A DNA stretch of 54,313 nt, taken from contig DAIDJG010000031.1 in NCBI GenBank assembly GCA_027451445.1, forward strand, positions 1 to 54,313. Reading direction: 5' to 3'. A program made the position numbers and the translations under genes. The notes below the pieces were generated by a model. The model was not told the DNA's origin. It worked only from the letters and a program-made list of their open reading frames with translations, and made no database searches. Source of the stretch: Singulisphaera sp. Its GTDB lineage: Bacteria > Planctomycetota > Planctomycetia > Isosphaerales > Isosphaeraceae. This document shows, in pieces, positions 7,859-46,359 of this stretch (position 1 is its first letter; the number at the start of each line of letters is the position of its first letter).

Positions 7859-10800
7859 GTGGTACCACACGCCCAGAGCAGCGCGCGCCGTCACAAGCTC
7901 CGAACCGCCCGGCGGTCGACCCATACGAAGCTCGTTGCCGAGCACCTGGAAGTCCGGCTGACGCCGGCGACGGGGTCGATCAGCGGCGTGGCCTATAACG
8001 ACCTGAACGCCAACGGAGTCCAGGATGCGAGCGAGCCAGGCATCGCGGGCCAGACGGTCTTCATCGACCTCCACCAGGACGGCACGCTCGACCCCGGTGA
8101 CCCAACCACGACCACGGCGAGCGACGGCTCGTACCAGTTCACGGGCTTGCAACCCGGCACCTATCTGGTGTCCCAGGTCCTCCCCTCCGGTTGGCACCAG
8201 ACGACGCCCAAACCCACGCTCGAACGGGCCGTGTCGGTGATCGCCTCCGCCCCCTATACGTTCACCTTCGCAAATTTCGCCAGCACCACGGATCAGACGA
8301 TCCCGGCCTACACGGAAAACGGCTTCGTTTTCAACACCACGGCACAGCCCACGTCGCAGTTCACGATCTATGGCAGCTCCGATAGCACGCGTTACGCCGG
8401 TGAACCTGCCCTCTCCGCCGAGTGGTCCCCGAGCACCATCAGCTTGATGCGCTCTGACGGTACGCCGTTCACGCTCGACGCGATGGACCTCTCGACGATC
8501 TGGAGCAGCGTCTATACCGTGACCGTGACCTTCACCGGGCACCTCGCGGGTGGCGGAACGGTCACGCAGGCCTTTAACATCGGTAGCCAGCTCGGGTTCC
8601 ATCACGTCACGTTCAATGGTTTTACGAACGTCCAGTACGTCACCTGGAACTCTACGGGCTACAACGACTATCACCAGTTCACGAACGTGACGGTGGAGAC
8701 CGGCGGACCGCTTAACGTTTCTGGAGTGAACTTCGGCAGCGTCAACACCGGCGCCGATGCGCCTCCGTCGGGGGCGAGTCCAACCTACATCGTGAATGAA
8801 AACTCTCCCCTGACCGTCGCCAACACGGGGGCCCTCACGAATGCGTTCGACCCCGACAAGGATCCGCTCAGCGCCATTCTGGTGTCCGGGCCCGCGAACG
8901 GGACGCTGACGCTCAGTCCCCTCGGTCCATTCACCTACACGCCGAACGCCAACTTCTACGGCACCGATTCGTTCCAGTACGAGGTCAGTGATGGGACCGA
9001 GCTCAGCGCGCCGGCAACCGTGACGATCAATGTCCAGAAGGTCGAGTACGCTCCCACCGCCGTCGCCGACACGTACAGCGTGACCAAGTCCACGCCATTG
9101 ACCGTCAGCGCGGCGGCGGGCGTGCTCGCCAACGACAGTGACGTGAATGGCGACCCCTTGACGGCGATCCTCGAAAATAACCCTGCTCACGGCTCACTCA
9201 AGTTGAACGCCGACGGCTCGTTCACGTACACGCCGTTTGGGGTCTACCTCGGCCCTGATACCTTCGAGTACAAGGCGAGCAATGGGACGCTCAGTAGCAA
9301 CGTCGTCGTCGTCACACTCAATGTCACGGGTCCGGACGATCCACCCGTGGCAAACAACCACAGCTATACCGTCGCCGAGAACACCGTCTTGCAGTCGAAC
9401 GCGCCTGGCGTACTGTTTGGCGACAGCGATCCGAACGGACAGCCGATCACGGCGGTCCTGATTTCCGGACCCTCCAACGGAACGCTTCAGCTCAACGCCA
9501 ACGGCTCGTACACCTACACGCCGAACGCCAACTTTTACGGCACCGACTCGTTCCAGTACACCGACAACGACGGCCAGCTCAACGGGAACACCGCCACGGT
9601 AACGATCACGGTGGATTCCCCGCCGGTGGCCGTTCCCGAGAGCTTTTCCACGACCGAGGACGTTCCGCTGACCGTTGCAGCGCCTGGCGTTCTCGCCAAT
9701 GACACGCAGGCTGCCGGCAACCCGCTCACCGCGGACCTCTGGACACTGCCAGCGCACGGCACCATTAAGTGGAATGGCGACGGCTCATTCGTCTACACGC
9801 CCAATCTCCACTACTACGGCACCGACTCGTTCCAGTACCTCGCCTCGGACGGCAAGCTCGATAGCGCCGTCGTGACGGACACGGTCAACATCGCGTTCGT
9901 GAACTACCCGCCCGTGGCGAACAATGACCAGTACACGATGAATGAGGGAACGTCCCTCACCACGGTAGCGGCGGTCACGTCGCTGAATATCCAGAGCCAG
10001 CAGGGAGACTACATCGGCGGCGGCCAGAACTACAGCTACGGGGCAAACGACGGGACGTACACGGTCACCCGAAACTATTCCAACGGCGTCTCGATTCGTT
10101 TCGTGCCTAACGTTAACCCGATCGACTCGTGGCAAATCGACTTCGCCGGCCCCAACAATGCCCTGTTGACCCCGGGAACATACGACAACGCAGTGCGCTA
10201 TCCGTTCCAGTCGGGTGGAGAGCCGGGCCTCTCCGTGTCGTACTACGACCGTGGCAGTAACACGCTCACAGGGCAGTTCACGATCTACCAGGCGACCTAC
10301 GATGCCAGCGGGAACGTGATCAGCTTCAACGCTTCGTTCCTCATGCACAACGAGGGGTTGCCACCGGCGCTTTCGGGCCAGATCGAGTACAACGCTTTTG
10401 CCGGGCAGACCGGCGTGCTTTTCAACGACACCGACATCGAGCACGACCCCCTCACGGCCCAGCTCGTCACGGGTCCGTCGAACGGATCACTGACTTTCAA
10501 TTCGGATGGCACGTTCACGTACACACCGAGCCCCTTGTTCTACGGGACCGACAGTTTCACCTACCAGGCGAACGACGGCACAAGCCTCGGAAACGTTGCC
10601 ACCGCGACGATCACGGTGGCTCACGTCAACCATCCCCCAACCGCCGTGATCGACAACTACGCGGTGGGTGAAAACCAAACGCTTTCCGTCGCAGGACCGG
10701 GCGTGCTGGCCAATGACACGGACCTCGACAACGACCCACTCACCGCAGTCCTTGTCGCGGGTCCGACCAACGGGAGCCTCACGCTCAATTCCGACGGATC

Positions 10801-13462
10801 GTTCGCGTACACGCCCAACGCAGGTTTTGTCGGTACGGACACGTTCCAGTATGAAGGCAACGACGGGCAGGCCAACAGCAACGTTGTCACCGATACGATC
10901 ACCGTGGACGCGCCGGCGATCGCGGCAAATGCGACTGTGGCGGTCGCCGCAAACACGCCCGCGGCGATAACTCTGTCGGCAAGCGACCCGGAAAACAGCC
11001 CGCTCACATACACCGTGGTCGCCGGTCCGAGCCACGGTACGCTCAGCGGCACCGGGGCTAACCTGACGTATACGCCCGACAGCGACTATGTCGGCTCCGA
11101 TACGTTCACGTTCCAGGCGAACGACGGCGTGTCGGATAGCAACGTGGCGACAGTGACCCTTGGTGTTGTCGGGACTCCGACGATCGCCTGGGCGAGCCCC
11201 GCGGATATCACTTACGGCACAGCGCTCGGCGCCGCCCAGCTCGATGCATCCGCGACATTCGGTGGACTCAACGTCCCGGGCACCTTCGTTTACACGCCCG
11301 CAGCCGGCACGGTCCTCAGCGCGGGAGCGAACCAGCCGTTGTCGGTCACCTTTACGCCAGACGACACCACGGACTACAACTCCGTGACGGCGTCGACAAC
11401 CATCAATGTGCTGAAGGCCTCGCCCTCGCTGACATGGGCAAACCCGGCGGACATCACCTACGGCACGGCGCTGAGTTCGACGCAGCTCGACGCCACAGCC
11501 TCGGTGCCGGGGACGATCTCGTACACGCCCGCGGCGGGTACAGTGCTTGGCGCGGGCCAGGGCCAAACCCTCTCAGCGACCTTCACGCCCACCGATACGA
11601 CGGATTACAACACCGTCACGGGCACGGCGACCATTAATGTCCTCAAGGCCAACCCGACGCTGGTCTGGGGCGACGGCACGCACTTCCAGATTACTTACGG
11701 AACACCGTTGAGCGCGGCGCAGCTCGACGCGTCCGCATCCTTCGGTGGCGCTCCCCTCGCGGGCACGTTCACGTACGTGCCGGCGGCGGGCACGATCCTG
11801 AACGCTGGCGTTGGACAGATCCTGTCGACCCGTTTCAAGCCAACCGATTCGGCCGACTTCAATGACGCATCGGCCTCCGCATTGATCGATGTGGCCCAGG
11901 CGACGCCGACGTTTGATTCCCTGGCTGCACCCACGATCGTGTACGGAACGACGACTCACGTCTCGGGCCACATCGCTGCGGGCACGCTTGTCCCGACGGG
12001 CATGGTGAAAATCACCATCGGGAACCAGACCGCGGGCGCCGAGATCGACCCTTCGACCGGCGACTTTGCCGCCGACGTGGCCACGGCGAATCTGGGCGCT
12101 TCGTCCACGCCCTATACGATCACCTACAGTTACGCGGGCAGTACCAACTTCACCGCCGTCAGTGCGACGACCGGCTTGACCGTCAACAAGGCCAACCAGA
12201 CCATTTCCTGGAGCAACCCGGCCGCGATTACGTACGGCACTCCTTTGAGCAGCACGCAGCTCGATGCCACGGTTTCGGTATCCGGTCCGGATCAAACGAC
12301 CGGCGCGCTGACGTACTCGCCGGCGGCGGGTACCGTTCTCTCGGCAGGGCCGAATCAGACGTTGACCGTCACCGCCGCAGCCACCGCCAACTACAACGCG
12401 GCGACTCGGACGGTCACCATCAGCGTGGCGCCCGCCACGCCGGTGATCACCTGGGCGAGCCCCGCGGGCATCACGTACGGCACCGCGCTCAGCAGCACCC
12501 AGCTCGATGCGACCGCCTCCGTGCCCGGTACGTTCAGCTATTCGCCGGCGGCGGGTACGGTTCTCACAGCGGGCCAGGGTCAGGTCCTCACAGTCACATT
12601 TACGCCCACCGACTCCACGGACTACTCGACGGTCAGCGCCTCGACGACGATCGACGTCGCGAAGGCCCATCTCACCGTCACCGCAAACAACGCGGACATG
12701 GGTCACGGCGACCCGGTACCGACGTTGACGGCCTCAATCAGCGGATTCGTCAACGGCGATACCTCTCAGGCTGTGAGCGGTTCGGCTGCCTTGAGCACGA
12801 CGGCCACAAGCACGAGCGCGGCGGGTACCTACCCGATCACGGCCTCGATCGGCACGCTCTCCGCAGCCAACTACGACTTCGCATTCGTCCCCGGCACGCT
12901 GACCGTGCACCCCAAGGTGCTCGACATTCGCGTTCACTGGGGAACGCAGACCATGTCGCTGCTCGGCCTGACGCGCGACCTGCCGTTCATCAACATCAAC
13001 GCCGTTGACGTCCTGTTCAGCGATGACGTTACGGTCGGTAAGAGTGACCTGTCCCTGTCGAGCACCACGGGCAGAGCCTACACGTTCAGTGGGTTCAGCT
13101 ATAATGCGACCCAGCACGACGCGACCTGGACCTTGCCCACGGCCCTGGGGATCGACCAACTGCTCCTGGCGCTCGATTCCAATTTCGGTGCGAACGTCAA
13201 TCCTTCAATCTCCGTCTGGAATAACAACCCCCTTTCGTTCACCGTGCTCCCCGGTGACTTCAACGGAGACCGGCAGGTCACCAGGGCCGATTGGCAGGGG
13301 GTCCAGGCGGACGTGGGGATGAACGTCGTGTGGGCGGATCTGGATGGCAACGGCGTCGTGAACCGACAGGATGTGAACGACGCGAAAAGCCTTGTTGGCA
13401 CGAGCATTACGGGCGGCAGCACCAGCCACAAGCACAGCCACGGGAACGGTCACGGGAACTGA
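7859..13462 (+). CDS. Giant modular surface/extracellular protein with cadherin-like, MBG-like and dockerin-like repeats
   Basis: 1867 aa; the GTG start is preceded by GAGG about 6 bases away. There is no classical signal peptide. Residues 30-37 read LEVRLTPA within an Arg/Lys-rich N-terminus, a pattern common at the start of planctomycete exported proteins. Then come an SdrD B-like domain (about 39-115, GVAYNDLNANGVQD) interrupted by or followed by a jelly-roll-like segment (about 130-295), and seven cadherin-like units (about 300-1100; each with DxDP/NDxD, GxLxxxxxGxFxYTPN, GTDSFxY). The fifth unit is split by a ~145-residue insert containing GDYIGGGQ. Five YGTxLSxxQLDA repeats, an Ig-like Big domain and an MBG-like domain (about 1100-1690) follow. 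Near the C-terminus are two EF-hand/dockerin-like loops (DFNGDRQVTRADW at 1800, DLDGNGVVNRQDV at about 1829) and a His/Gly-rich tail. Likely an adhesin or cell-surface scaffold. Confidence 0.85.
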   Translation: MVPHAQSSARRHKLRTARRSTHTKLVAEHLEVRLTPATGSISGVAYNDLNANGVQDASEPGIAGQTVFIDLHQDGTLDPGDPTTTTASDGSYQFTGLQPGTYLVSQVLPSGWHQTTPKPTLERAVSVIASAPYTFTFANFASTTDQTIPAYTENGFVFNTTAQPTSQFTIYGSSDSTRYAGEPALSAEWSPSTISLMRSDGTPFTLDAMDLSTIWSSVYTVTVTFTGHLAGGGTVTQAFNIGSQLGFHHVTFNGFTNVQYVTWNSTGYNDYHQFTNVTVETGGPLNVSGVNFGSVNTGADAPPSGASPTYIVNENSPLTVANTGALTNAFDPDKDPLSAILVSGPANGTLTLSPLGPFTYTPNANFYGTDSFQYEVSDGTELSAPATVTINVQKVEYAPTAVADTYSVTKSTPLTVSAAAGVLANDSDVNGDPLTAILENNPAHGSLKLNADGSFTYTPFGVYLGPDTFEYKASNGTLSSNVVVVTLNVTGPDDPPVANNHSYTVAENTVLQSNAPGVLFGDSDPNGQPITAVLISGPSNGTLQLNANGSYTYTPNANFYGTDSFQYTDNDGQLNGNTATVTITVDSPPVAVPESFSTTEDVPLTVAAPGVLANDTQAAGNPLTADLWTLPAHGTIKWNGDGSFVYTPNLHYYGTDSFQYLASDGKLDSAVVTDTVNIAFVNYPPVANNDQYTMNEGTSLTTVAAVTSLNIQSQQGDYIGGGQNYSYGANDGTYTVTRNYSNGVSIRFVPNVNPIDSWQIDFAGPNNALLTPGTYDNAVRYPFQSGGEPGLSVSYYDRGSNTLTGQFTIYQATYDASGNVISFNASFLMHNEGLPPALSGQIEYNAFAGQTGVLFNDTDIEHDPLTAQLVTGPSNGSLTFNSDGTFTYTPSPLFYGTDSFTYQANDGTSLGNVATATITVAHVNHPPTAVIDNYAVGENQTLSVAGPGVLANDTDLDNDPLTAVLVAGPTNGSLTLNSDGSFAYTPNAGFVGTDTFQYEGNDGQANSNVVTDTITVDAPAIAANATVAVAANTPAAITLSASDPENSPLTYTVVAGPSHGTLSGTGANLTYTPDSDYVGSDTFTFQANDGVSDSNVATVTLGVVGTPTIAWASPADITYGTALGAAQLDASATFGGLNVPGTFVYTPAAGTVLSAGANQPLSVTFTPDDTTDYNSVTASTTINVLKASPSLTWANPADITYGTALSSTQLDATASVPGTISYTPAAGTVLGAGQGQTLSATFTPTDTTDYNTVTGTATINVLKANPTLVWGDGTHFQITYGTPLSAAQLDASASFGGAPLAGTFTYVPAAGTILNAGVGQILSTRFKPTDSADFNDASASALIDVAQATPTFDSLAAPTIVYGTTTHVSGHIAAGTLVPTGMVKITIGNQTAGAEIDPSTGDFAADVATANLGASSTPYTITYSYAGSTNFTAVSATTGLTVNKANQTISWSNPAAITYGTPLSSTQLDATVSVSGPDQTTGALTYSPAAGTVLSAGPNQTLTVTAAATANYNAATRTVTISVAPATPVITWASPAGITYGTALSSTQLDATASVPGTFSYSPAAGTVLTAGQGQVLTVTFTPTDSTDYSTVSASTTIDVAKAHLTVTANNADMGHGDPVPTLTASISGFVNGDTSQAVSGSAALSTTATSTSAAGTYPITASIGTLSAANYDFAFVPGTLTVHPKVLDIRVHWGTQTMSLLGLTRDLPFININAVDVLFSDDVTVGKSDLSLSSTTGRAYTFSGFSYNATQHDATWTLPTALGIDQLLLALDSNFGANVNPSISVWNNNPLSFTVLPGDFNGDRQVTRADWQGVQADVGMNVVWADLDGNGVVNRQDVNDAKSLVGTSITGGSTSHKHSHGNGHGN

Positions 13463-14176: not shown

Positions 14177-15388
14177 CTATTGCGTTTGGGCAGCACGATC
14201 TGGGCCAGAGGCTTCGATGCCGTCGGTTGTCTCGCCGATCAGCGCCTCGAGGTTCATGCGACACGCCGCAACCTTTGGATGATCGGGTTCGATGAACTGG
14301 ACGAACATCTCCAACGCGCGCTGATAGAGCGACTCAGCGTCGCTTCGTCGTCCCTGATGAGCAAGGAGGACGGCGAGGTTGTGTTGAGTCAGGGCGATGT
14401 CGGGGTGCGCGGGCCCGAGGAGCCGTTCCTTGATCGCCAACGCACGCCGCAGGGCGTCCTCGGCCGGCGCCAGATCGCCGCGTGCCTGAAGGAGGACACC
14501 AAGGTTATTCAGGTTCACGGCGATCTCGTAATGCTCGGGGCCGTACGCTCGCTCGAAGACGGCGAGCGCCTGCCGATAGAGCTCCTCGGCCTCGTCCAGC
14601 CGGCCCAATTCGGCGACGATAGCCGCCAGGGCGGCACGATCGGCGGCGACGTCCGGGTGGTCGGCCCCGAGGAATTGCTCGCGGATGACGACCGCCCGGC
14701 GCGCGAAGGGCTCCGCGCGCCGATAACGCCCACGCGCGTGCTCCAGACCGCCGAGGTTATGGTAGATCGTCGCGAGGTCCGAACGGTCGGCGCCGCTCCC
14801 GTGCGACATGATTCGAAGAGCGCGACGAAGCAACGGCCTCGCCTCGGCGAACCGACCCTGGTATTTGTGCAACACCGCGAGCTGATTGAGAATTGAACCG
14901 ACCTCCAGACCGCGCGGTCCGTAGGCAGCCTCGGCAAGCGCCAGCGCCCTGCGCAAGAGTGGCTCAGCCTCATCGTAACGGCCGCGCATCCGGCGGACGG
15001 TCCCCACATTGCCGAGCGATTCGATGTGTAGCCGGACCAGGTCCGGATGGTTGCAATCGACGGCGTCCATGATCCGGACCGACCGCGAGAAGAGGTCGTC
15101 GGCATGGGCGTATTCCGATGTCTCCAGCGCAATCGTGGCGAGGGAATTCGTGATCGCGGCGACGTCCGGCTGATCCGGACCGACGGCACGCTCCATGAGT
15201 CGTAACGCGTGCCGGCAGGCGGCGCGTGCCCGATCACGCTTCCCCTGCGCATGTAGACCGATCGCCCGATCGTGCAGGGCGGCGGCGCGGTCGGCCAAGT
15301 TGTCAGGCGGAACTGCCAATGCGGAATGTACGAAGTTTGTGTTAGTCATCGCGTCGGTCGGCCCTGCGACATGGTCCTCGGCAGTCAT
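14177..15388 (-). CDS. Tetratricopeptide-repeat protein (kinesin-light-chain type)
   Basis: 403 aa with no signal peptide or membrane segment. About seven 42-residue TPR units of the kinesin-light-chain type run from residue ~30 to 385 (for example ALAxxERAYGPEHYEIAVNLNNLGVLLQARG and ALAIKERLLGPAHPDIALTQHNLAVLLAHQG). Such repeats make protein-protein scaffolds. The gene begins only 39 bases after the stop of the repeat-peptide gene, on the same strand, so it is probably co-transcribed with it. It could be a cytoplasmic partner or chaperone for the peptide or an adaptor for the exporter; this is inference from position only. The ATG at 15386-15388 is used; a second ATG 13 codons in lacks a better ribosome site. 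Its 3' end faces a palindromic repeat. Confidence 0.8.
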   Translation of the reverse strand: MTAEDHVAGPTDAMTNTNFVHSALAVPPDNLADRAAALHDRAIGLHAQGKRDRARAACRHALRLMERAVGPDQPDVAAITNSLATIALETSEYAHADDLFSRSVRIMDAVDCNHPDLVRLHIESLGNVGTVRRMRGRYDEAEPLLRRALALAEAAYGPRGLEVGSILNQLAVLHKYQGRFAEARPLLRRALRIMSHGSGADRSDLATIYHNLGGLEHARGRYRRAEPFARRAVVIREQFLGADHPDVAADRAALAAIVAELGRLDEAEELYRQALAVFERAYGPEHYEIAVNLNNLGVLLQARGDLAPAEDALRRALAIKERLLGPAHPDIALTQHNLAVLLAHQGRRSDAESLYQRALEMFVQFIEPDHPKVAACRMNLEALIGETTDGIEASGPDRAAQTQ

Positions 15389-15427: not shown

Positions 15428-15829
15428 TTACTCGCTGTCGTCGAGGGCGAGCAGGCGATCGGTCCCGGGCGGCTTACGGCTCGACGCCCCATTGGTGACC
15501 AAATCGTTGGGCCCACCAGCCCTGATCGCCAAGCGAACTTCGCTCCGGGCCTCGTTGTGATTCATGCTCAACGCCCCGAGCCCGCCGCCGGCCTTGATGC
15601 CGGTGTGGACCTTCAGGCCGCCCTGCGCCTCGTTGTGATTGGTACCAGCGGAATGAAGTCCGCCACCCTTGATACCGCTCTGGACCTTCAGGCCGCTCTG
15701 GGCCTCGTTGTGGTTTGACAATGTGAGCCCACCAGCCTTGACTCCGCTCTTGACCTTCAGGCCGCCCTGGGCCTCGTTGTGGTTCATCATCTTGAGCCCA
15801 CCGGCCTTGATGCCGCTCTTGACCTTCAT
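15428..15829 (-). CDS. Repeat-peptide precursor candidate (KSGIKAGG/NHNEA repeats)
   Basis: 133 aa; an excellent ribosome site GAGGAG lies 7 bases before the ATG. The protein has four near-identical units starting at residues 1, 24, 47 and 72, each with K-V-x-S/T-G-I/V-K-A/G-G-G, a variable 3-7 residue stretch, then N-H-N-E-A (16-20, 39-43, 64-68, 90-94). A fifth, degenerate unit (VRLAIRAGG) and a charged tail follow. Every unit contains Gly-Gly after K/R-A/G, and units 1 and 3 also end in A-Q-G-G. There is no Cys, signal peptide or membrane segment. It lies 382 bases downstream of a C39-ABC/ABC/HlyD export operon, which makes it the likely cargo. I recall similar short KVKxxVKAGG...NHNE proteins in other bacteria but know no named function. 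It could instead be a self-assembling or structural repeat protein. Confidence 0.75.
   Translation of the reverse strand: MKVKSGIKAGGLKMMNHNEAQGGLKVKSGVKAGGLTLSNHNEAQSGLKVQSGIKGGGLHSAGTNHNEAQGGLKVHTGIKAGGGLGALSMNHNEARSEVRLAIRAGGPNDLVTNGASSRKPPGTDRLLALDDSE
15539..15829 (-). repeat. Four tandem ~69-78 bp coding repeats
   Basis: The DNA of the four units is strongly similar (for example CTGGGCCTCGTTGTGGTT on the plus strand recurs with few changes), with some third-base differences in the NHNEA codons such as AAC/AAT and GCC/GCG. This indicates tandem duplication followed by protein-level conservation. The variable parts are the 3-7 codons between Gly-Gly-Leu and Asn-His-Asn. Confidence 0.85.
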
Positions 15830-16211
15830 CGAAGAACTCCTCGATCCAGTGGTACAGGGTAACCCCAGGCCGAGATCGAGCGGGTGCTCATCGGAGATCT
15901 CGGCAGAAACGAGCGCGAGTCGCCGGTGTGTCGGAGTGACCGAGGGGGGGATTCACAGGAGGCTTCGCGTTGAGAGAACAACGGGCGCGGACACCTCGAC
16001 GCGAACATAACAACAATCCCGAGTCGCTATGCTCCTCGTCGACGTCGGCCGAGGGTGCGGTCGGTGCAGGGCCGGGAAGTTGTTTCGCGCTTCGGTAATT
16101 CGTTCCGTGCATCTTGTTAATGTCCATCGCGGCGATTCCTGTGACATGATCGCGGCAGCCGGCCGTTCCGGGAGCCGGCTTGCAATCATAAGAGGTTTCA
16201 GCCGTTGACTT
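15830..16211. other. Intergenic region upstream of the repeat-peptide gene
   Basis: 382 bases separate the second ABC gene from the peptide gene, whereas the exporter genes overlap one another. The gap suggests a separate promoter or processing site for the peptide gene. It holds the 29-base element at 16119-16147. A 79-codon frame (15888-16127, minus) has a plausible AGGA site but an Arg/Pro-rich, unconvincing protein, and is not called. Confidence 0.5.
16119..16147 (-). promoter_or_regulatory. Shared upstream element, copy A
   Basis: On the plus strand the element begins AATGTCCATCGC, continues with GCGATT and ends TGTGACAT. It matches 22634-22662 at 25 of 29 bases. Copy A lies about 290 bases upstream of the repeat-peptide start; copy B lies about 400 bases upstream of the HlyD-type gene. 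Same orientation relative to both genes. A regulatory role is inferred from position and conservation. Confidence 0.35.
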
Positions 16212-18347
16212 TCAGGGATGCGCCACAACGATCAGAGTGGAGGCTCGCTCCAGGACGTACGCGAGCGCGTCGCTGAGCGTCTGGGGGTCGAGTGCGGCGA
16301 AGCTTTCGTCGAGGATGACGAGGTCGGCCTCTTGCAGGAGTGCACGGGCGAGGAAGACCCGGCTCCGCTCGCCGTGGCTGAGCTGCCATCCGGTCTCGCC
16401 GACGACCTGCATCAGCCCGGCCGGCATCCGGTCGAGGAGTGGCCCAAGGCTCAGGTTGCGACAGACCCGTTCGGCCTCCTCGATGTCCGCGAGCGAGGGG
16501 GGCCAGGCGCGGCCCATCAGGAGGTTGAAGGCGAGCGGGCCCATGAGGATGTGGTTCTCGTGGAACTGAGGCGCCAGCGCGACTCGTCGTCGCCATGTCG
16601 CACTTCCCAGTGTTCGCCGGTCGAGCCCGTCCCAGAGGAGCAGGCCCGACTCCGGAACCCGTAGGCCCGCCAGCACCGCGGCCAGGGTCGATTTGCCGCC
16701 GCCCGACCGGCCTTGAAGCAGGATGCGCTCCCCATCGTTGACACCGAGCGAAGCGCGGTCGAGGACAGGCGCGTGATCGTCGCCATGGCGATAGACGAGC
16801 GTGCGCGCGTCGAGCCGAGGACGATCGACCGCGTGCGTGTTCTCAAACGGGGGCATACTGGCGAAGTCGGGCGAGCCGGACGGCTCCGTGCGCTGCGCGG
16901 CCGTCCAGAGCGTTCTAACGCGTCGCCACGCGATCACGGCAGCCGCCGTTTTCTCCAGAGACTCCGCCAGCGCCCGCAGCGCCCGGTAGGCCAGCAGCAC
17001 CCCGCCGAGCCCCACAGCCAGCCCTTCGGCCGAAGCATCGCCGCGGACGAACCCCGGTACGAGACCGAACAGCCCCACGAGCAGCCAGCCTCGCGGCGAC
17101 AGGACGTGAAGGCCCGCGCCCAGAATATCGAGCGTGCGGGAAGGGTGGAGGTAACGCTCCAACGCACATTCCTCGTCGTCGTGCCGTGCGTCATGTGGTT
17201 CCTGGGCCAGCCGGGTCCGATGACCCACCATTCGCTCGACCAGGTCGTTGGTCATCGCGATCCTCTGCTCGGTCCAATCGGCCCGCGCGCGGAAGTATCG
17301 CACACCCAGTGCGAACGTCGCCGCCACCGTGGCCGCCAGCAGCCCGACGTGCGGCCAGCCTCCAGCACCGAAAGCCAGTACCGGAACGGCCAGGGCAAGC
17401 TCCAGCGCAGCCGCCAGCCCGAGGTAACCGCCCGAGAGCCCCATGAGCTCGATCGCCTCTGACTCCAGAACCTGTCCATAAAATTGACCGATCCCGGCTC
17501 GCCGCACTTCATCTTGTCCCAGCGCCAGGACCCCGGCCAGGAGCCGGCGCTTGAGCAGCGAGCCTACGCGGACTGCGAACCCTCCGGCCGTCGCACTGAC
17601 CATCAGCCGGCAGAGGGCGGTCGAGACAATCAGGAACACCCATGCCGCCAGCCAGCCGGCATCGATCCGGCCTGTCGTCGTCATCCCTCCAAGGAGCCAC
17701 CAGGAGCCGATCCAGAACGCGGAGCCAAGGGCCTGTGCGGCGACAAGATTCATGAGCAGTCGTGGCAGTTCAGATTCGCGTGCTTGGGCCAGCACATGCG
17801 AGCCGGCGGGCGGCCGAAGGAGCCAGACGTTCCCCACGCGTGCCTCAACCAGGAACTGGTCCAGAAGCGCGCTGCGGACACGCGCTCGACGCCGGCGTGG
17901 CACGCCTGTTTCGGCCAAAACCCGGTCGACTTCCTTGGCGACCGACTCCTCGACGCCAAGGCACAGGACCGACCGCACGTCTGCGATCGCGACTCGGACC
18001 ACGGCGTGGTCGGGTGTCAGGATGCGAAGGGACTTTGTGCGTCCGTCGAGGATCGCCAGGAACCGCGGGCCGGTCGCGCCGCCGAGCCGGGCTATGGCCG
18101 GTCCGGCGCGTTCGACGAGGCCGCGGACATCGGGATACGGGCAATCGACGGCCTCGGCCTCACAGCCGAGCCAATGGGCGGCCTGCGCGATCCAGCGGTC
18201 GAGCGACTCCGGGCTTTGGAACACCTGCCCGGGCGGCCGTGGGTAGTTCGAGGCTGTAAGCGGCAAATGGGATCGTCGCGCAAGGGCATCGAGCGCCTCG
18301 CCGAGGCGGGCGGCCGGCCAGCTCAGATCAACAAGCGAGTCGCTCAT
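16212..18347 (-). CDS. NHLM-type second ABC exporter (permease/ATPase, no peptidase)
   Basis: 711 aa. The ATG at 18345-18347 overlaps the previous stop as ATGA and has GGGAAG upstream; a GTG six codons earlier is less likely. The N-terminal ~190 residues are a soluble domain without C39 motifs, as in NHLM ABC2 proteins. A transmembrane region follows (about 200-470: MNLVAAQALGSAFWIGSWWLL, AAWVFLIVSTALC, LAAALELALAVPVLAF and others), then the ATPase: Walker A GRSGGGKST (K552), signature LSHGERSR (variant of LSGGQ), Walker B LVILDES and H-loop VVAHP. The protein stops right after the H-loop His-Pro, shorter at the C-terminus than typical ABC ATPases. It presumably forms a heteromeric exporter with the C39-ABC protein. 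Confidence 0.85.
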   Translation of the reverse strand: MSDSLVDLSWPAARLGEALDALARRSHLPLTASNYPRPPGQVFQSPESLDRWIAQAAHWLGCEAEAVDCPYPDVRGLVERAGPAIARLGGATGPRFLAILDGRTKSLRILTPDHAVVRVAIADVRSVLCLGVEESVAKEVDRVLAETGVPRRRRARVRSALLDQFLVEARVGNVWLLRPPAGSHVLAQARESELPRLLMNLVAAQALGSAFWIGSWWLLGGMTTTGRIDAGWLAAWVFLIVSTALCRLMVSATAGGFAVRVGSLLKRRLLAGVLALGQDEVRRAGIGQFYGQVLESEAIELMGLSGGYLGLAAALELALAVPVLAFGAGGWPHVGLLAATVAATFALGVRYFRARADWTEQRIAMTNDLVERMVGHRTRLAQEPHDARHDDEECALERYLHPSRTLDILGAGLHVLSPRGWLLVGLFGLVPGFVRGDASAEGLAVGLGGVLLAYRALRALAESLEKTAAAVIAWRRVRTLWTAAQRTEPSGSPDFASMPPFENTHAVDRPRLDARTLVYRHGDDHAPVLDRASLGVNDGERILLQGRSGGGKSTLAAVLAGLRVPESGLLLWDGLDRRTLGSATWRRRVALAPQFHENHILMGPLAFNLLMGRAWPPSLADIEEAERVCRNLSLGPLLDRMPAGLMQVVGETGWQLSHGERSRVFLARALLQEADLVILDESFAALDPQTLSDALAYVLERASTLIVVAHP

Positions 18348-21049
18348 GTCCGCTTCCCTTCGCACACAATGCGGCCCTCCTCCACGAACAATCGCGACCA
18401 GGCCGGTCCGGACCAGAGTTGCTCGCGGACGACGGCCTCTGCCGCAAGCAGCGTGTGATAGCGCGACGCAGCGTCGAAGGCCAGATGGGCCGGGGCTCCG
18501 TCCTCCACGACCTGGCCATCCTCGACGACCAGAACCCGGTCGAACGAGGTCGTCTCGGCAACGTCATGGGTCACGCAAAGTAGCGTGACCCCCCGGAATC
18601 GCTCTCGCGCCTGCCCCAGCAGCCGGGAACGATCGTCACGATCAAGGCCGCGGAATGGCTCGTCGAGGACGACCAGCCGCGGCCTGGAGCGCATCCATGC
18701 GCGCCCGAGGCGGACCCGCTGCCCCTCTCCACCGGAAAGCAGGCCGCCCCCTTCGCCGAGGACCGTCTGGAGTCCTTCGGGCAACCGGCCGAGAACGCGG
18801 AACAGGTCGACGCCGGGCACCGTCTCGCTCAATCGTAACGGCTCATCTCGGCGTGTCCCGTACCGGAGGTTGTCCAGCAACGAGCGGTTCCAGATCTGGA
18901 TTTCCGGATCGACCCAGGCCGTCTGCGCGCGCAGCCCGTCGAGCCGGGTCGCATCCAGACGCGCGCCATCGACCAGGACCCGACCGGCCGCCGGCTGGTG
19001 CCAGCCGAGCAATACCCCCACCAGGGTCGACTTCCCTGCCCCCGACGGACCGACGACCGCCACGTGGCTTCCTGCATCGATCTTCAGCGTCACGTCCCGC
19101 AGGATCGTGTGGCCGCCGGCGCGGACGCCGACCGATTCGAATTCGATCGTCACGCCTCCAACCGCCGCGTCGCCGCTGGAATGTTCGGGCGCGGACTTGG
19201 GGTCGCGCTCGGGTTGTTCCTCGGCGGCCCCGAGCGGCTCGAGAAGGCGAAGCATCGTGTTCCGATGGAGAGGATATTGCCGGACCAGGAGGGCCATTTC
19301 TTCGCCGAGCAGCGGCACATTCAGCGCCCAGTACGCAAGCAGAAGCGTGCCGCCGGCTTCCGCCGCCCGACCGGCATCGAGCAAGATCAGAGCAGCGGCG
19401 AAGCCAAACCCGAGGGCCGACTGCAGGGCCTCGCTGGCGAGCGCGCCGCGCACAAAGCGGCGGCTAGCTCGAGCCCACTCGACGAGTAGGCCCTCGTGCT
19501 CGCGCCGAACGGCCCCTTCGGCGGCGTGGGCGCGGATCGCGACGAGACCGAGGAGGGCGTCCAGATAGAATCGACCGAGCGCACCCGCATGCGTCCGCAC
19601 CCGCAAGTCGAGCGCCTGGAGCCAGAGGTTGCAACCGAGCGGTACGGCAACCGCCAGACCTGCGGCCAGGGCGGCGACGGGCGCAATCCGCGGATCGATC
19701 CACGCGAGCGCGAACCCCGTCGCCGCGAGCGAAAGCGCCGCCCGCACAGCCTGGCCGACGAGCGTTGGGAAAACGCGGAGCTGATGAATCTTGTGACTTC
19801 GATCCGTCATGTCCGAGATTGGCCGGCTGTGGAAGTAGCGGTCCGCGAGTCGGGGAATCCGTGCGCTGAACGCAGCGCGAAACGAGATCTCGAGCTTCCG
19901 GCCGAGCCAGAGGAGGCCATTCGCGACGCCGAATTCGGCCAGAAGCAGGAGGCCGACAACCCCCGTCATCGCGGCCGACGCGGCGAGCCTTTGCTGGACG
20001 AGTTGCAGATCACGGCCCACGCCCAGCGCCGATCGGAACAGCAACGCTTCGAACACAGTCCCTCCGGCGATGAGGGCGAGACCCAGCACGAGTGCGACCA
20101 AGAGCCCAGCCAGGGCAAGCGGGCCGGAACCCTGTGTAACGAACACCCAGGGCCGGAGCCGCCGAGTCGCCGGCGCGGCGAGCGCTGAAGCCAGCTCTGG
20201 TCCAATCGCCGCGCGGTCGACGGGCTTCCATCCTGCGGTCGATGAGGGTCGGACGCGTACGAGGACCGCACCTCGCACCGAGACACACGCCTCGCCTGCT
20301 GGGCCGGGAGCAGCAGGCAGGATCGCGCGAAAACGATCGGGAATGGCATCCCTCTCACCGCTCTCGGACCTGGCCAGGAGCGACCGTACGAGCCGCCCCG
20401 CCTCGCGGCCGCGGTGAACGCCGCGTGCGCGGACCAGCGCCTCGACGAGCCGTGTCGTTGCATCGAGTGTCGCGAGCCGCTGCCAGTCTGGGTCGGCGGC
20501 CGCCTCATTGATCAGTGCGGCGGCCGAACGTCCGACGCCCAGTGCGCGAAGGCGGGCACCGAGCGGGTGGAGGAACTCGTCGCTCACCGCCCAGGCGTGC
20601 CAGGCGTCGGCCGGAAACGTGGACGAATGAGCGTAGGCTTCGTCGATAAGCCGCCGCCCCGACAGCCAGCGCCGTCCCTCGGCCGGGTCCATGACCTGCA
20701 CCAGCGGCCCGTGACGGCGCCACGCTAGCACGAAATGCGTGAAGCCGTTCGGGAGCCGCATCACCAGGATACTCGGGAGCGCCCCGGCCTCTTCGAAAAG
20801 CAAGTGGTCAATGGGCACCATGACCTGCTCGGCCGCGAGGCCAAGGCGGCAGGCCACGGATTCCAGAACATCGATCGATGTGCCATCCACGTCGGTCTGA
20901 CACACCTCTCGGAGCCGACCGTAGTCGATCGGAATGCCGAAACCTTCAAGGAGGCTCTTCAGCACGGCAGGACCGCAGTCCATCTCCGACGTCTGGACGA
21001 CCTCGGGAACCAGCCAGCTCCAGCTCGATCGTTTGGCTCCCGCTCTCAT
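18344..21049 (-). CDS. C39 peptidase-containing ABC exporter (NHLM ABC1-like)
   Basis: 901 aa. Residues 1-150 are a C39 bacteriocin-processing peptidase: Cys25 in QTSEMDCGPAVLKSL, His105 in GFTHFVLAW and Asp121 in VMDPAEG form the expected triad, so it should cut after Gly-Gly leaders. Residues about 170-330 are an extra soluble stretch not expected in the ~710-aa family. Transmembrane segments follow (about 345-620, e.g. GPLALAGLLVALVLGLALIA). The C-terminal ATPase has Walker A GPSGAGKST, signature LSGGEGQR, Walker B RLVVLDEP and H-loop VTHD, all intact. Start and stop codons overlap those of both neighbours as ATGA, so translation is probably coupled. It is predicted to process and export the repeat peptide encoded downstream. 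Confidence 0.9.
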   Translation of the reverse strand: MRAGAKRSSWSWLVPEVVQTSEMDCGPAVLKSLLEGFGIPIDYGRLREVCQTDVDGTSIDVLESVACRLGLAAEQVMVPIDHLLFEEAGALPSILVMRLPNGFTHFVLAWRRHGPLVQVMDPAEGRRWLSGRRLIDEAYAHSSTFPADAWHAWAVSDEFLHPLGARLRALGVGRSAAALINEAAADPDWQRLATLDATTRLVEALVRARGVHRGREAGRLVRSLLARSESGERDAIPDRFRAILPAAPGPAGEACVSVRGAVLVRVRPSSTAGWKPVDRAAIGPELASALAAPATRRLRPWVFVTQGSGPLALAGLLVALVLGLALIAGGTVFEALLFRSALGVGRDLQLVQQRLAASAAMTGVVGLLLLAEFGVANGLLWLGRKLEISFRAAFSARIPRLADRYFHSRPISDMTDRSHKIHQLRVFPTLVGQAVRAALSLAATGFALAWIDPRIAPVAALAAGLAVAVPLGCNLWLQALDLRVRTHAGALGRFYLDALLGLVAIRAHAAEGAVRREHEGLLVEWARASRRFVRGALASEALQSALGFGFAAALILLDAGRAAEAGGTLLLAYWALNVPLLGEEMALLVRQYPLHRNTMLRLLEPLGAAEEQPERDPKSAPEHSSGDAAVGGVTIEFESVGVRAGGHTILRDVTLKIDAGSHVAVVGPSGAGKSTLVGVLLGWHQPAAGRVLVDGARLDATRLDGLRAQTAWVDPEIQIWNRSLLDNLRYGTRRDEPLRLSETVPGVDLFRVLGRLPEGLQTVLGEGGGLLSGGEGQRVRLGRAWMRSRPRLVVLDEPFRGLDRDDRSRLLGQARERFRGVTLLCVTHDVAETTSFDRVLVVEDGQVVEDGAPAHLAFDAASRYHTLLAAEAVVREQLWSGPAWSRLFVEEGRIVCEGKRT

Positions 21050-22230
21050 CGGCTGGAATCCTGGGGCGACATCACCATCCCACGTCGCGCCGAAAGGTAG
21101 TGCCCGGCCGAGCGGAGCACCAGGGTCGCCGGTGATACTCGCTCCACCTCGACCTCGGCGGTGCCCGGCAAGCCGTGCGTAATGGGAATGGGAGACCGGG
21201 GATCCGGGATCAGAATCAGCTCGACCCGGATTAGCCCGGAATTGGGCTCGTTGCCCACGTGATCGACCTGCGCCTGCACGGGTCCATATTGCGTCCAGGG
21301 AAACCCCTGGAGTCGAAGCCTGGCGCGCTGGGACGTGTGAATACGGCCGAGCGCGGCGACGGGGAACAACGCCACCGCGCGCGCTTCACCATGAGGCACA
21401 ATCGAGGCGACCGTCTCTCCCACGCGAACGACCGCGCCGACCCGGAGCGTCGGGGCCACGGCACCCACACAGCCCGAGATGGGCGCGCGGACGTAGCGTC
21501 GGGTGACCGCATGTTCGAGCCGTCGAATGATCGCCGACTCGGTCGCAATCTCACTGGCGAGCCGAACTGCATCCACCTCGAAGGCTGCGATTCGTGCGCG
21601 GTGGTCGGTGGCTTCGGCCTCGAGCTCGCGCTCGAGCCGCTCCGGAGCAAGATGGGTGCTTTTCACCAAGGCACGGAGTGCCTCGGCTTCGGCTCGTGCC
21701 CGCGCGTACTCATCTCGCGAAGTCGCGGCACGCGCTCGGAGTCGCTCCAGTGCATCGAGCTGGAGTTCCGAGTACTTCGATCGTGCCTCGGATTCTTCGA
21801 CCGCCGCCCTGGCCTCCTGGATCGCGACATGTCGTGCGGCTCGATGCCGCGAAGCGGCCTCATTCTCAGCCGCGATTCGCGCACGCTGGGCGACGAGTTC
21901 GGCCGTGAGACCATCGTGCGTCGCCCTATGCTCGCTAAGCGCCAACCGCTCGTCCTCGGAATCGAGGACAAGGACGATCTCGTCTTTTTGAACATCGCGC
22001 CCGATGGATAGGTTCGTCACGGTGACGCGGCCGTCGAGCTGAACCGAAACGGGATGAGCCGCCGATTCGACCTCGAGCCGCGCATTTTCGGTCACTTCAT
22101 ACACGCGAACGGGAACAGCAAAGAACCAGGCGGTCCAGACGGTTACGAGCAGCCCGACTACGAGCAGCATACCTCGTCGCGGAGCGTCCGACTCGAGCGA
22201 TCGCAAGGTCCGAGAGAACGTCGCGGGCAT
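21046..22230 (-). CDS. HlyD-type membrane fusion/adaptor protein of the exporter
   Basis: 394 aa from the ATG at 22228-22230, which has AGG about 8 bases upstream; longer starts (ATG 22263, GTG 22314) are possible. One membrane segment (about 21-41, MLLVVGLLVTVWTAWFFAVPV) follows a short basic N-terminus. A lipoyl-like half-motif (VTVTNLSIGRDVQKDEIVLVLDS), a long Ala/Glu/Arg-rich coiled coil (about 105-255) and the second half (YVRAPISGCVGAVAPTLRVG) then complete an HlyD/AcrA architecture. It would bridge the two ABC exporters to the outer envelope. It is the first gene of the exporter operon and overlaps the C39-ABC gene by 4 bases. The trio HlyD + C39-ABC + ABC is the NHLM export set. Confidence 0.85.
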   Translation of the reverse strand: MPATFSRTLRSLESDAPRRGMLLVVGLLVTVWTAWFFAVPVRVYEVTENARLEVESAAHPVSVQLDGRVTVTNLSIGRDVQKDEIVLVLDSEDERLALSEHRATHDGLTAELVAQRARIAAENEAASRHRAARHVAIQEARAAVEESEARSKYSELQLDALERLRARAATSRDEYARARAEAEALRALVKSTHLAPERLERELEAEATDHRARIAAFEVDAVRLASEIATESAIIRRLEHAVTRRYVRAPISGCVGAVAPTLRVGAVVRVGETVASIVPHGEARAVALFPVAALGRIHTSQRARLRLQGFPWTQYGPVQAQVDHVGNEPNSGLIRVELILIPDPRSPIPITHGLPGTAEVEVERVSPATLVLRSAGHYLSARRGMVMSPQDSSR

Positions 22231-22822: not shown

Positions 22823-25800
22823 TCATGGCACGGCTCGCTCCGGCGGTCCGTCCGCGTGTACGTGGCCGTCGTCGGCTTCGCCTCGCGCGGCGAGACGGTC
22901 GGCCTCCTCACGCAGCAGTTGGAGCTCCACAATCTGGCGCCACGTCGGAATGTAGCGTCTCATTGCCTTGCGCTCCATAAACGTGAATATATAATTATCA
23001 GATCGGCGGCGCATCATATCGATGCTCAGCCGTTCCCACGGCGCACTCATTCCTCCGAGCACGGTCGGGTGGGACGGGTCCGTGGTTGCCTGATCGAGCC
23101 AGCGAGCGGCCTTGGCACGCCAGGCGGCTGCGACTGTCGTGTGATTCCGCTTCGCTTCGATGAGGGCGAGCAGCAGCCACTGGCGCGGGGTACCATCGTC
23201 GCGCTCGGGACTGATATCAGCGGCCTTGAGTGTGGGCCTGACCGCCTGACCCGACACGTTGTCAGGAAGCCGGCTGGCTTGCGCATAGGCGGCGAACGCG
23301 ATGCGGACCGACTGGTGGGCGGCATCATATTGACCCGCGCGGTACTGCGCGATCGCCAGGGCGCTCATGAAATCCGAGTCCGATGCGAAGTACTTGGCGG
23401 GATGCTCCAAAAGCGTCAACAATCGCGCAGGGTCATCCTGACCATCGGGCCGGAGTGTGACGACCTGGACGATCGGGACCGAGGTCGTGACCGGCGTTTT
23501 GCGGTTTAACACCGCGAGCAGTCCAGCACAGGTGGCTCGATAGGCGTCGCGGTCGCCGAGCCGAGCCTGGAGCGCGGCGCAGCAGAGTCCTACCTCCAAA
23601 GGGGCGGGTTTGTGGTCGTGAACAATCTTTAAGTCGGCGGCGGCTGCCCAGCGGCCGAGTTCGGCCTCGGCGTTGGCCCGGCGTTTTCGGAGCTCCGGGT
23701 CTTCCGGGGCAGACGAGATGAGCGCGTCGAGATGGACGAGCGCCGCGAACGAATCGCCCGACGTTTCCGATTCGTCGGCGATGCGGCGATGCCAGTCGTG
23801 GGCTGACTCAGCCGGGTGCGCAGGCAACTCAGGTTCGCGTCCGTGAAGCGCGGTCCAATCTCGCTCCAGGACCTCGGCCGGAACCCCATCGGCCGCGCCA
23901 TCGGGTCCAACTTGATGCCCTGAAAGCACCCGAGCGAGCCCCGCGAGCGAACTGGACGGAGTTCGCTTTGGGGACAGGTCCCACTGCTCCAATGTGTCAG
24001 AGATCGTAGTAACCGCGAGATGCATTGAGTCGCATGGCACCAGGCGTTCGACACCTGCCGAGATTGTTACGGGCGGCCCGAGGGGTAATCCCGTCACCGC
24101 CTCCCAGATGTGAATCTCGTGTGCCGACGACGTGAAGGCCAGCCGCCCGTCGGCACTGAGTCCCAGGGCAGGTCGAAGTCCGATGCCTTGGTCCGCGAGC
24201 GCTTTCTTCCAGTCAGGCACGATTTCCGTCAAGGGCGGGCCCACGGGGACGCCCGTGGCGACGTCCCAGACCTGGGCTGCACCCTGAGCTGGCTGGGAGA
24301 TCAAGCGTTTGCCATCGGCGCTGAGCGCAATCAGGACGTCCTCGTCGCGCATGATGAGAGGCCCGTCACTCCACGCTTCACCGCGTTCGGCGTCGCGCCG
24401 GTGAACGGCCGCGTCCCCAACGCTGATGAGCACGACCCGCCCGTCCGGCGCAAAGGCACCGCAGGGGGGCATGCACCGGCCAGCAACCGTCCACCCGGAC
24501 AGCGGTGCGCTGCGGCTCGGAGGCTCGGTCGAGGTCACCGGTGGACCAATGGTCGTGCCCTGGGCCGTGTCCCAAAGTTGGCCATACCCGTCCTGGATCG
24601 TCAGAAGGCGTCGGCCATCCGGGCTGAACGTCGCGAGAAGTACGATTCGCTTGGGGTCGAGCGGCAGCGGCTTGCCGCGATTGGTGATGAGGTCCCAAAG
24701 CCAGACGGCGGAGGGATAGCGGCGGTCGACCCCGACCACGGTAGCGGCGTATCGACCGCCCGGGGCGAGGGCAACGAAAGCGACCGTCTCCGCTTGTTTC
24801 AAGCTCACACTCACCGGTGGTTCGGCGCGGAGATCCCAGGTCAAGACCGGAGTGTTCTTCGCCGTCGGGCGCGCGGCCAGCACGGCGATCAGCCGCTTCC
24901 CGTCGTTGCTCAATGCGGCGTCCCGTGTGCTGAGGCCGGGGCCAAGAGGGACTGCGGGCCCCTCGGGGCCCCCGTCCGAACATCGCACCACCCGCAGGCT
25001 TCTTTGCTCGACTGTCTTGCTTTTCACGCGAACTGACTGCGACTCTTCGCGGACGACGAACCGTCCATCGGGCGTACACCACCGCCCCTCGATGGAGCGG
25101 CCTCGGCCGGGTGGCGGGCCGGTCAGATCCCAGGCGCGCGACTCCAGCTTTCGCACATTGGGCGAACGTCCGGCAGTGACCAGCATGCGGCCGTCCGGGC
25201 TAAACCGCATCAGTGTAACGGCCCCCGCCTGGCGCAGGAGGGGAGTGCGCGGTTTCAGGGTATGCGAGTCCCAGACCCGGGCCGCTCCGGCGCTCAGGGT
25301 AGCGAACCATCGGCCGTCGGGGCTGAAGGCAACCGCTTGAGCCATCCCGTGCAGTGGGACCGTGTTGTCCGGCGGAGTTGCCTTCGCGAGGTTCCAGAGC
25401 CGCGCTTCGGCCGTCCCTCCGGTCACCAGCCGGCGACCATCGGGACTGAATGCCGCGACGAGTACGCGGCCGAGTGGACCATCGCCGTGACTCAATGGTC
25501 CGAGTGTCAGCTTGCCGGTCGCGACATCCCAGACTCGTGCGGAGCCGAAACGGGCGCCGCTGCTGGAATTGGTCACCGTCGCCAGCCGTGTCCCGTCGGG
25601 GCTGAACACACTCTGCGTCACGGCGGTCGGATGCGCCAGCGGTGGCGTCTTCGGCCGTCCCGAGTCGGCATCGAAAACCTGAACGAAGTACTCGAGCGAT
25701 ACCAGATCCGCCCGGTAGGAGAGTACCGCGGCCAGGAGTCGGCCATCGTCCGAATACCGGATCTGGTAGACCTGCATTCCTTTTCGGTTCGCGAGTGCGA

Positions 25801-27973
25801 TCGGCATCTCCGGCCCGGCTTCACGTCCCGTCGATAGCTCCCACGTCCGCAGCAGTCCCTCCTTCGCCGAAGTCGCCACCCGATTCCCGTCGGGGCGAAA
25901 GTCCAGGTAGTCGAGCCAGCCGTCGATCGTCATTAACGGCCCTGCAGGACGGTTCCGAACCACATCCCAGGCCTGAAGCTCGGTCGTCATCGCCTTGGTG
26001 ACGTCGTCCCGACGGTTCACGGAGCGCACGGCCGTTCGGCCATCGCGGCTGAGATGAACACTGCCAGCGGGCTGGGGCAGATCTACGTGCGATTCAGCGA
26101 CGTGGCCTGTGAGAGGATCGAAGACCGCGACCCGGTCCCCCGCCAGGCAGATCAAGCGCTGATCATCGCGAGCAAAGACTGCGGATTCCTTGGGATTCAG
26201 GGGCATCCAGCTCAGATGGACCAACCGGGGAAGTTCCCGCAGGGTCGCGCTGACGCGCATCCGGTGGAGCGGTTCGCGTTCGGTATGATCAGCGTCGAGA
26301 GCCAGGGCCTCAGCGTACCAGGGGAGTGTCGCAAGCCAGTCTCCCTCGGCACGTGGCACGTTGCCGTTGCTGATCAGGTGATTGACGAGTCGCTGCCGGC
26401 TTTCAGCCGACTTGGCCTCGGCCACACTGCGTTGAAACTCGGCGTCGCCCCGGGCGGTTTTCTCCGCCCGGGCGATTTTCCTTTCGCGCGTCGCCTGCTC
26501 GCGAAACTTCAGCGCGGCCCAGGTCGATCCACTCGCGGCGCTGAGCAGTGCTACGGCAAGTGATGCGGCCAGGGCGGCGATTGCGGGGTTACGGCGACAC
26601 CAACGCCAGGCGCGTTCGGCACGTCCAACCGACCGCGCAACGATCGGCTCGCCACGGAGCCAGCGTCCCAGGTCCTCGGCCAGAGCCAGCGCGCTGGGAT
26701 ACCGCCGTCGCGCATCTTTTTGCAGGCATCTGAGACAGATTGTCTCCAGGTCGCGAGCAACGGAGGGATTCAGGTCGCGCGGACCCACCGGCTCGCGCTC
26801 CAACACCTGGAGGAGCGTATCCATCGTGCTCGCTGCCTGGAACGGCGGACGGCCCGTCAACAGGCAGTACAGGACCGCTCCCAGAGAATAAACGTCCGCC
26901 GCAGTGCCGACGGCGCGGGTGTCGCCGGCCGCTTGTTCCGGCGGCATGTAACTCGGAGTCCCCATCACGGCGCCACTTGCGGTGAGTCCGTCATCCGACT
27001 CGATCTGCTTCGCAAGGCCGAAGTCGGTCACTTTCGGCCGTCCACCCTTGTCCAGCAGTACGTTTTGCGGCTTGAGGTCACGATGGATGACCCCTCGGTC
27101 GTGAGCGTACTGAATTGCCTCAGCGATCTCGCGCGTGAGCGTCGCGGCTTCGCGCGCCGGTAACGGGCCGGCGGCGACCTTCTGGGCCAGGCTCTGACCC
27201 TCGATGAATCCCATCGAGAAGTAATGCTGGTCTTCGTGCGTGCCGATCTCGTAGATGGGTACGATCCCGGGATGATCAAGGCTCGCCGCAGCGGCCGCTT
27301 CCAGGTAGAACCGCTTAACGTCTGTCTCAGAGGCAAATTGCCCGGACAGGATCATTTTCAGCGCCACTGTGCGATTGAGATTCCGCTGACGGGCAAGATA
27401 CACCACGCCCATTCCGCCGCGTGCCAGTTCGCGCACCAGTTCATAATCGCCGAAATAGCGGATATTGGCAGCCGTCGTGTCTGATTGTTCGGCCGTGTTG
27501 AGATCGACCGTGGCCTCCGCATCGAAAGTGTGATGGTGTGCGAGCGTCTCAGTTTCCGCGGGCGTCGACCGTGTCGCGGGGCTCAGCGTTGCCATCTCGG
27601 TCTGCGGCACGTCCACGCGCGCCGCGGGCGGCAGTGTCGGGGTTTCGCCCATCGGTTCGACGGAGTCCGAGTGACGCGGCTGCGCAAACTCAGCGAACGC
27701 TGCGGTAATCGCACGTTCGTAGGCTGGGAATCGGGCCAGGTACTCAGCGGCCGAAGGACGCTCGCCGACGACGGCGCGCAATTCTCTTTCCAGCGCCACG
27801 AGCTCGATAAGCAAAACCTCTCGGTCAGTCTCAGGCAGCGCATCGAGATGGTCTTCAATGCGCACCGCACGCCCAGCACGCCACCCATCTTCGAAGGAAC
27901 GGCAAACTTCCTCGACGCGCCGCGCCCCTGCGGCATCAAGGTCGGCGAACGGGCTCGGTCCGGCGACATTCAT
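22823..27973 (-). CDS. Transmembrane Ser/Thr protein kinase with WD40-type repeat sensor
   Basis: 1716 aa; GGGAGGG lies 7 bases before the ATG. Residues 15-95 are a helical planctomycete-type kinase leader. The kinase domain spans about 175-440 with P-loop ARGGMGVVY, Lys206 in [12 protein letters not shown] (297-304), DFG (317-319) and APE-like MPPEQ, so it should be active. One membrane segment (about 464-487, [17 protein letters not shown]) is followed by a coiled coil, about twelve WD40-like units (repeated [16 protein letters not shown], WDxATG) and a C-terminal TPR-like region from about 1450. The sensor half would face the other side of the membrane. Its neighbour upstream is an ECF sigma factor, the usual planctomycete pairing, so it may control that sigma factor; this is inferred from gene order. 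Confidence 0.9.
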
Positions 27974-43488: not shown

Positions 43489-43508
43489 GATCCAATCAGG
43501 GATCCGGT

Positions 43509-46350: not shown

Positions 46351-46359
46351 ACGGTCGGC

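Follow-up and report, generated by a model that had tools for sequence, protein, structure and literature searches.

Several described export systems resemble the locus studied here. In the NHLM trio (TIGR03794/03796/03797), an HlyD-type adaptor, an ABC transporter with an N-terminal C39 peptidase and a second ABC protein without peptidase are encoded together and are taken to export double-glycine precursors (Haft et al. 2010, cited in PMC3140520). For the PCAT/AMS transporters PCAT1, LahT and ComA it is known that the C39 domain reads hydrophobic residues at positions -4, -7 and -12 on a helical leader (PMC10885120), while a C39-ABC exporter from a graspetide cluster was reported to cut after a GG motif (PMC13039773). 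Thiovarsolins and the fungal repeat proteins processed by Kex2, in turn, carry several copies of the product in tandem on one precursor. The window, i.e. the whole analyzed stretch of 54,313 nucleotides from a Singulisphaera sp. which we take to be a soil-type bacterium, shares features with each of these systems and differs from all of them.

The exporter of the window is encoded by three genes on the reverse strand, the strand that also carries the repeat gene described below. The HlyD-family adaptor (21046..22230; PF13437, HlyD_3, 1.5e-10) has orthologues of 29-42% identity at exporter loci and was taken to start at the ATG at 22230 instead of the GTG at 22314 given by the mechanical open reading frame. 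It is followed by a C39 peptidase-ABC exporter of 901 amino acids (18344..21049; PF03412, Peptidase_C39, 3.7e-17, together with PF00005, ABC_tran) and by a second ABC permease/ATPase comprising ABC_tran alone (16212..18347; PF00005, 3.6e-20), for which the ATG at 18347 was preferred to the mechanical start GTG at 18365. Both junctions are successive ATGA overlaps with the sequences CCGATGAGAG and GACATGAGCG; together with the Pfam domains they bear out the coupled trio proposed in the first-pass annotation. The orthologues of the second ABC protein (35-49% identity) lie directly 3' of the C39-ABC gene in 19 loci. The claim of an intact Cys25/His105/Asp121 triad was likewise confirmed: the C39 domain of the window contains Q19, C25, H105 and D121, the three catalytic residues are kept in 17 of 17 alignable C39-ABC orthologues, and Q19 in 16 of 17, the exception being L151 with a Gly. 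The GC content of the operon (62-69%) is little different from its surroundings, and scans for promoters and terminators gave results no better than shuffled sequences. With a C39-ABC tree that is mostly unresolved, neither a transfer into the planctomycete nor a co-divergence can be argued.

The gene set of HlyD, C39-ABC and ABC without peptidase is common to the window, the NHLM trio and the cyanobacterial bacteriocin clusters. To this extent the earlier description as NHLM-type export holds, since the same three genes stand in one operon, but the assignment to the family does not: all scores lie far below the respective cut-offs, with 168 against 853 bits for the C39-ABC protein (TIGR03796), 95 against 709 bits for the ABC protein (TIGR03797) and 29 against 156 bits for HlyD (TIGR03794). 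By these membership tests the window system is not NHLM. Its presumed cargo also differs, comprising no nitrile-hydratase-like or Nif11-like leader and consisting of short tandem units instead of one long leader and one core. In its make-up the C39-ABC protein agrees with the PCATs: catalytic Cys, His and Asp and the oxyanion Gln are all found in a C39 domain fused to an ABC transporter; the nearest solved C39 structure is that of PCAT1.

The repeat gene (15428..15829, reverse strand), seen as an open reading frame, by TRF and by the unit profile, encodes a tandem-repeat protein of 133 amino acids without Cys. At the DNA level TRF determined a period of 69 with 3.4 copies and 81% matches, and at the protein level the unit profile gave four matches of 52-59 bits, each corresponding to a unit of about 23 residues of the form K-x-G-G...NHNEA. 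Copy 1 (MKVKSGIKAGGLKMMNHNEAQ) spans 15767..15829, copy 2 15698..15766, copy 3 15623..15697 and copy 4 15545..15622, all on the reverse strand. The four to five copies counted at first are accordingly four full copies and a degenerate fifth one (VRLAIRAGG, 15544-15470, same strand), in which R-A-G-G is retained but NHNEA is lost. The gene does follow the trio on the same strand, as had been described, but it is not coupled to it, being located 382 nt downstream with a ribosome-binding site of its own (GAGGAG). No Pfam or NCBIfam family scored above its cut-off for the 133-aa protein, in agreement with the initial finding of a protein without NHLP or Nif11 leader.

Relatives were sought with the degenerate DNA pattern K-[AG]-G-G-x(2-10)-N-H-N-[EQ]-[AT] in 84,980 species genomes, which resulted in 32 stretches. 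Translation revealed true family members in 7 genomes, 5 of Acidobacteria and 2 of Myxococcales, a lower bound since the pattern allows AAG only as lysine codon and restricts the residue following E/Q. Of the 32 stretches about 18 proved to be single, non-repeated coincidences, and so did the 18 matches obtained in viral contigs. The unit profile found no relative beyond the source genome in 392 genomes of Planctomycetota; a marginal match (L013) lies inside a larger unrelated gene and is due to chance, and the best of the weak full-protein matches among 99 relatives (L004 in G010, 5e-5) turned out to be a CRISPR-like repeat array. At E<=1e-5 the profile gave nothing beyond the centre genome of each sample in 297 Acidobacteriota and 141 Myxococcota. 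A tblastn search of plasmids showed no match with E<0.01 and two matches at E 5-8, and a search of the literature for the motif as text retrieved nothing relevant. Since the profile found no further genome of Acidobacteriota or Myxococcota, the repeat family is rare and scattered.

Where the family occurs, its size varies widely. One acidobacterial genome (G463) has over a dozen such genes with no fewer than 91 units between them, the longest arrays comprise 13-14 copies with uniform units of 20-21 aa, and single-unit relatives of 22-28 aa exist as well (MKTKTTLKAGG/IKQNHNQTAVRVAQ and MKVETDVKAGG...NHNETIVG). Across 125 units the consensus is [LM]-x-[VI]-[KR]-[ST]-x-V-K-A-G-G-x(3-4)-N-H-N-[QE]. 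The NHN[QE] part is near invariant, with a within-gene pN/pS of 0.01 compared to 0.32 for the leader half, although both ratios are biased downwards by the selection of the units by motif. Copies within genes differ chiefly at synonymous sites, and this high synonymous divergence shows that they did not arise by recent duplication.

The first-pass annotation had suggested the repeat protein as the substrate of the exporter and proposed a search for KxGG...NHNEA proteins beside C39-ABC/HlyD genes in other genomes. This check was positive in four genomes of two further phyla. An orthologous full-length C39-ABC protein (E<1e-200) occurs in 6 of the 7 repeat-bearing genomes, and in 4 of those 6 the repeat gene adjoins the HlyD/C39-ABC/ABC trio: L138/G467 and L124/G466 in Acidobacteria, L125/G464 and L126/G462 in Myxococcales. 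Compared to the window proteins, the identity in these four loci amounts to 48-52% for C39-ABC and 37-42% for HlyD. The repeat genes of G463 and G465 lie away from the exporter, and the assembly of G461 has repeat genes and no exporter. Among repeat-negative genomes a C39-ABC orthologue (E<1e-100) was found in 5 of 295 Acidobacteriota (Fisher 1.9e-6 versus repeat-bearing genomes) and in 7 of 140 Myxococcota (Fisher 0.004); these tests take species as independent, and the p-values are indicative only. None of 147 planctomycete relatives contains an orthologue. Since the same pairing of repeat and exporter is found in two other phyla, the 133-aa protein is very probably the cargo of the adjoining pump.

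A comparison of the units with canonical double-glycine leaders showed clear differences. While the hydrophobic positions of the helical PCAT/AMS leaders are -4, -7 and -12, position -4 of the 125 units is Lys in 86% and position -7 is Ser or Thr in 98%. The hydrophobic residues alternate instead at -5, -9 and -11, and 123 of the 125 units fit this alternating pattern. G was found at -2 in 100% and G or A at -1 in 99% of the units, which is to be read with the selection of the units by this motif in mind. The canonical leader E[IL]xx[IV]xG[GA] with hydrophobic -4/-7 was present in none of the 125 units, in either its strict or its relaxed form. Because the residues at -4 and -7 break the helical pattern and the hydrophobic residues alternate, it is likely that the C39 domain binds the element in an extended, strand-like mode.

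Further indications for the function of the K-x-G-G half came from sister exporters. A 12-position profile of the LKVKSxVKAGG half was built from NHN repeats only and applied to the small open reading frames at 15 exporter loci without an NHN-repeat gene beside the exporter. Eight small open reading frames reached at least 10 bits, distributed over 6 of the 15 loci and differing in the sequence after the element; the controls, 326 kb of unrelated loci and reversed exporter DNA, gave no match. The matches comprise two copies of ...GGLKINTNVKAGGVVISD beside hlyD in L141, MKVKTKVKAGLAPTCGCG... in L144, two peptides in L148, repeats of LRVRSAVRAGGSYNH in L146, and microviridin precursors of Myxococcota in L149 and L151. 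The latter two (L149 16190-16372; L151 11825-12040) score 44.8 and 52.8 bits with NF033738 (cut-off 26), stand at exporters of the same clade and carry the element as VKTDVKAGA and VRTGVKAGA, respectively, before the core, where it follows the leader helix at the point of leader removal. The protein encoded beside the precursor of L151 has an MvdD pre-ATP-grasp domain and is closest to MvdD, though it stays below the cut-off of this family (339 versus 475 bits). In L142, L143, L145, L147, L150 and L152 no such peptide was found within the stretch examined at the exporter. As the element recurs in other small peptides at exporters of the clade and is absent from the controls, its most plausible role is that of leader tail and cleavage site for this exporter clade, with NHN[QE] as one of several cargoes. 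Together with the adjacency across phyla, this strengthens the assignment of the repeat protein as probable cargo. The element is thus shared with microviridin precursors, from which the NHN repeat proteins differ by the lack of a PFFARFL helix and of a TxKYPSD core; the NHN loci that were scanned had no ATP-grasp gene nearby.

The gene that follows the repeat gene after 39 nt encodes a TPR protein (14177..15388, reverse strand; TPR_12, 2.8e-75), which is a conserved partner. Homologues adjoin the repeat gene in L124, L125, L126, L127 and L138. This pairing of TPR and repeat gene holds for the four exporter-linked genomes, the window and G461; only G461 does not have the two on the same strand. 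Directly upstream of hlyD, a Ser/Thr protein kinase with WD40 repeats is encoded (22823..27973, reverse strand; PF00069, 3.4e-50), a probable regulator. Homologous kinases adjoin exporter or repeat genes at several other loci, and the repeat genes of G463 (L129, L131, L130 and others) lie mostly beside kinase-TPR genes, often with a gene for an ECF sigma factor. In two Myxococcales loci a sigma-54 activator adjoins the TPR gene instead. Since kinases are abundant (at least 99 in each of two genomes counted) and the modules of G463 are maybe duplicates, the association of the kinase with repeat and exporter genes is suggestive only. LanM, YcaO, radical SAM and ATP-grasp proteins were absent among the scanned window proteins and the scanned flanks of L138 and L124-L127.

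Two other gene groups of the window may be mentioned. Divergently from the repeat-protein and TPR genes lies the gene of a surface-type protein of 1867 aa (7859-13462), which carries Big_9/cadherin-like repeats and an SdrD_B domain. At the other end (42232-54313) lies a type VI secretion cluster with VgrG (48129-50309; TIGR03361, 651 bits), a Tox-PAAR-like protein (44417-45337), DUF2169, DUF6484, TssB and TssC; a 48-bp tandem repeat is located inside vgrG at 48379-48695.

Taken as a whole, the data are probably best explained by a polyprotein-like precursor that serves as cognate cargo to the exporter next to it and carries an exporter element in each unit. Several observations weigh against this model: the element is without the hydrophobic -4/-7/-12 pattern of helical C39 leaders, six sister exporter loci gave no such peptide in the stretch examined, the repeat genes of G463 and G465 stand apart from the exporter, G461 has none in its assembly, and no modifying enzyme appeared around the scanned NHN loci. 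An alternative would be a protein secreted nearly whole that forms a beta-solenoid or curli-like fibre, in which the K/T/V alternation would be that of beta strands and just an N-terminal piece would be removed. AlphaFold2 models the window protein, with low confidence, as strand-turn-strand rungs (pLDDT 65, pTM 0.56) and the 13-copy homologue L130 as a regular solenoid with 20-residue rungs (pLDDT 80, pTM 0.72). For the window model Foldseek ranked two functional amyloids highest, FapC and CsgA, and the best match of the L130 model is a Pontibacter curli subunit (E 0.0035). The existence of long uniform arrays of 13-14 copies with units of 20-21 aa would also suit a fibre. Against this, no Foldseek match reached E<0.001, the top TM-scores were about 0.4 or lower, and unit length varies within one gene. 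Neither the one-unit members of 22-28 aa nor the element-bearing microviridin precursors need a solenoid, and the predicted solenoid even runs into the non-repetitive C-terminus of the protein. For meaningless perfect repeats, AlphaFold2 is documented (PMC11795689) to return beta-solenoids that are confident but unrealistic. Because of this known tendency, the models are kept as a rival explanation and not as evidence for an amyloid, and we regard the fibre as unlikely.

A second alternative would be that the exporter serves another precursor, while the repeat protein stays inside the cell and partners the TPR protein or the kinase. A candidate for such a precursor is found in the same genome on contig C451, where a TOMM cluster (L157 10512-15377) comprises a precursor with a true NHLP leader (82 bits, cut-off 50.9) and a Cys/Gly-rich core together with YcaO/SagD and SagB genes. 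An intracellular role could likewise fit the TPR genes, which accompany all exporter-linked NHN loci, and the kinase genes present at most G463 loci. However, the link between repeat and exporter recurs across three phyla, further small peptides at the same exporters carry the K-x-G-G element at the place expected of a C39 site, and the leader of the C451 peptide ends differently (ELSPVAG), so that this explanation appears improbable, more so than the fibre. A leader-type precursor for the exporter elsewhere in the genome had been named beforehand as an argument against the cargo assignment; this objection holds by half, since a leader-type precursor does exist, but it sits on a TOMM contig on which no HlyD/ABC homologue was found. 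The window exporter might serve the C451 peptide too, which tempers the cargo assignment without overturning it. That a functionless 69-bp tandem duplication came to lie beside the exporter fortuitously can practically be dismissed: tandem DNA repeats are common and the window holds another one inside vgrG, but homologous repeats occur at the same exporter in other phyla, and the conserved blocks of the window copies diverge synonymously and not in amino acids (pooled pS 0.43, pN 0.075).

For the preferred explanation, a cognate polyprotein-like precursor, the following course can be proposed on the basis of the sequences. Each unit of about 20-23 residues would comprise the exporter element [LM]-x-[VI]-[KR]-[ST]-x-V-K-A-G-G and the cargo x(3-4)-N-H-N-[QE]-[AGST]. 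In the cytoplasm the precursor is probably bound by a TPR protein dedicated to it. The C39 domain most likely reads the element as an extended, beta-like stretch and cleaves behind Gly-Gly, and the pump would move the peptide to the periplasm and then out of the cell through HlyD. Expression is probably controlled by the Ser/Thr kinase, in relatives together with the ECF sigma factor. Whether excision would take place at every copy or at the first one only is about evenly balanced. Accordingly, a cut after KAGG and the release of x3-4-NHN[QE] peptides are predicted, which may act as signals or antagonistic peptides. Compared to thiovarsolins and Kex2-processed proteins, each copy here carries its own Gly-Gly exporter element, and processing is presumed to be done by the exporter.

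The window system adds a variant to the C39-exported peptides, and we found no description of such packaging of the cargo. More tentatively, and with somewhat less confidence than would favor it outright, it can be proposed that the repeat proteins represent a class of secreted polyproteins across phyla, in which the exporter excises and exports many copies of NHN[QE] via a non-helical C39 site in each copy, assisted by a TPR protein specific to the system and by a kinase/ECF switch. If this is true, the C39 exporters would include a leader signature that departs from the helical -4/-7/-12 rule, which could be used to mine peptides overlooked for want of NHLP, Nif11 or double-glycine signatures, and in this family bacteria would have an equivalent of the eukaryotic hormone and pheromone precursors that hold multiple copies.
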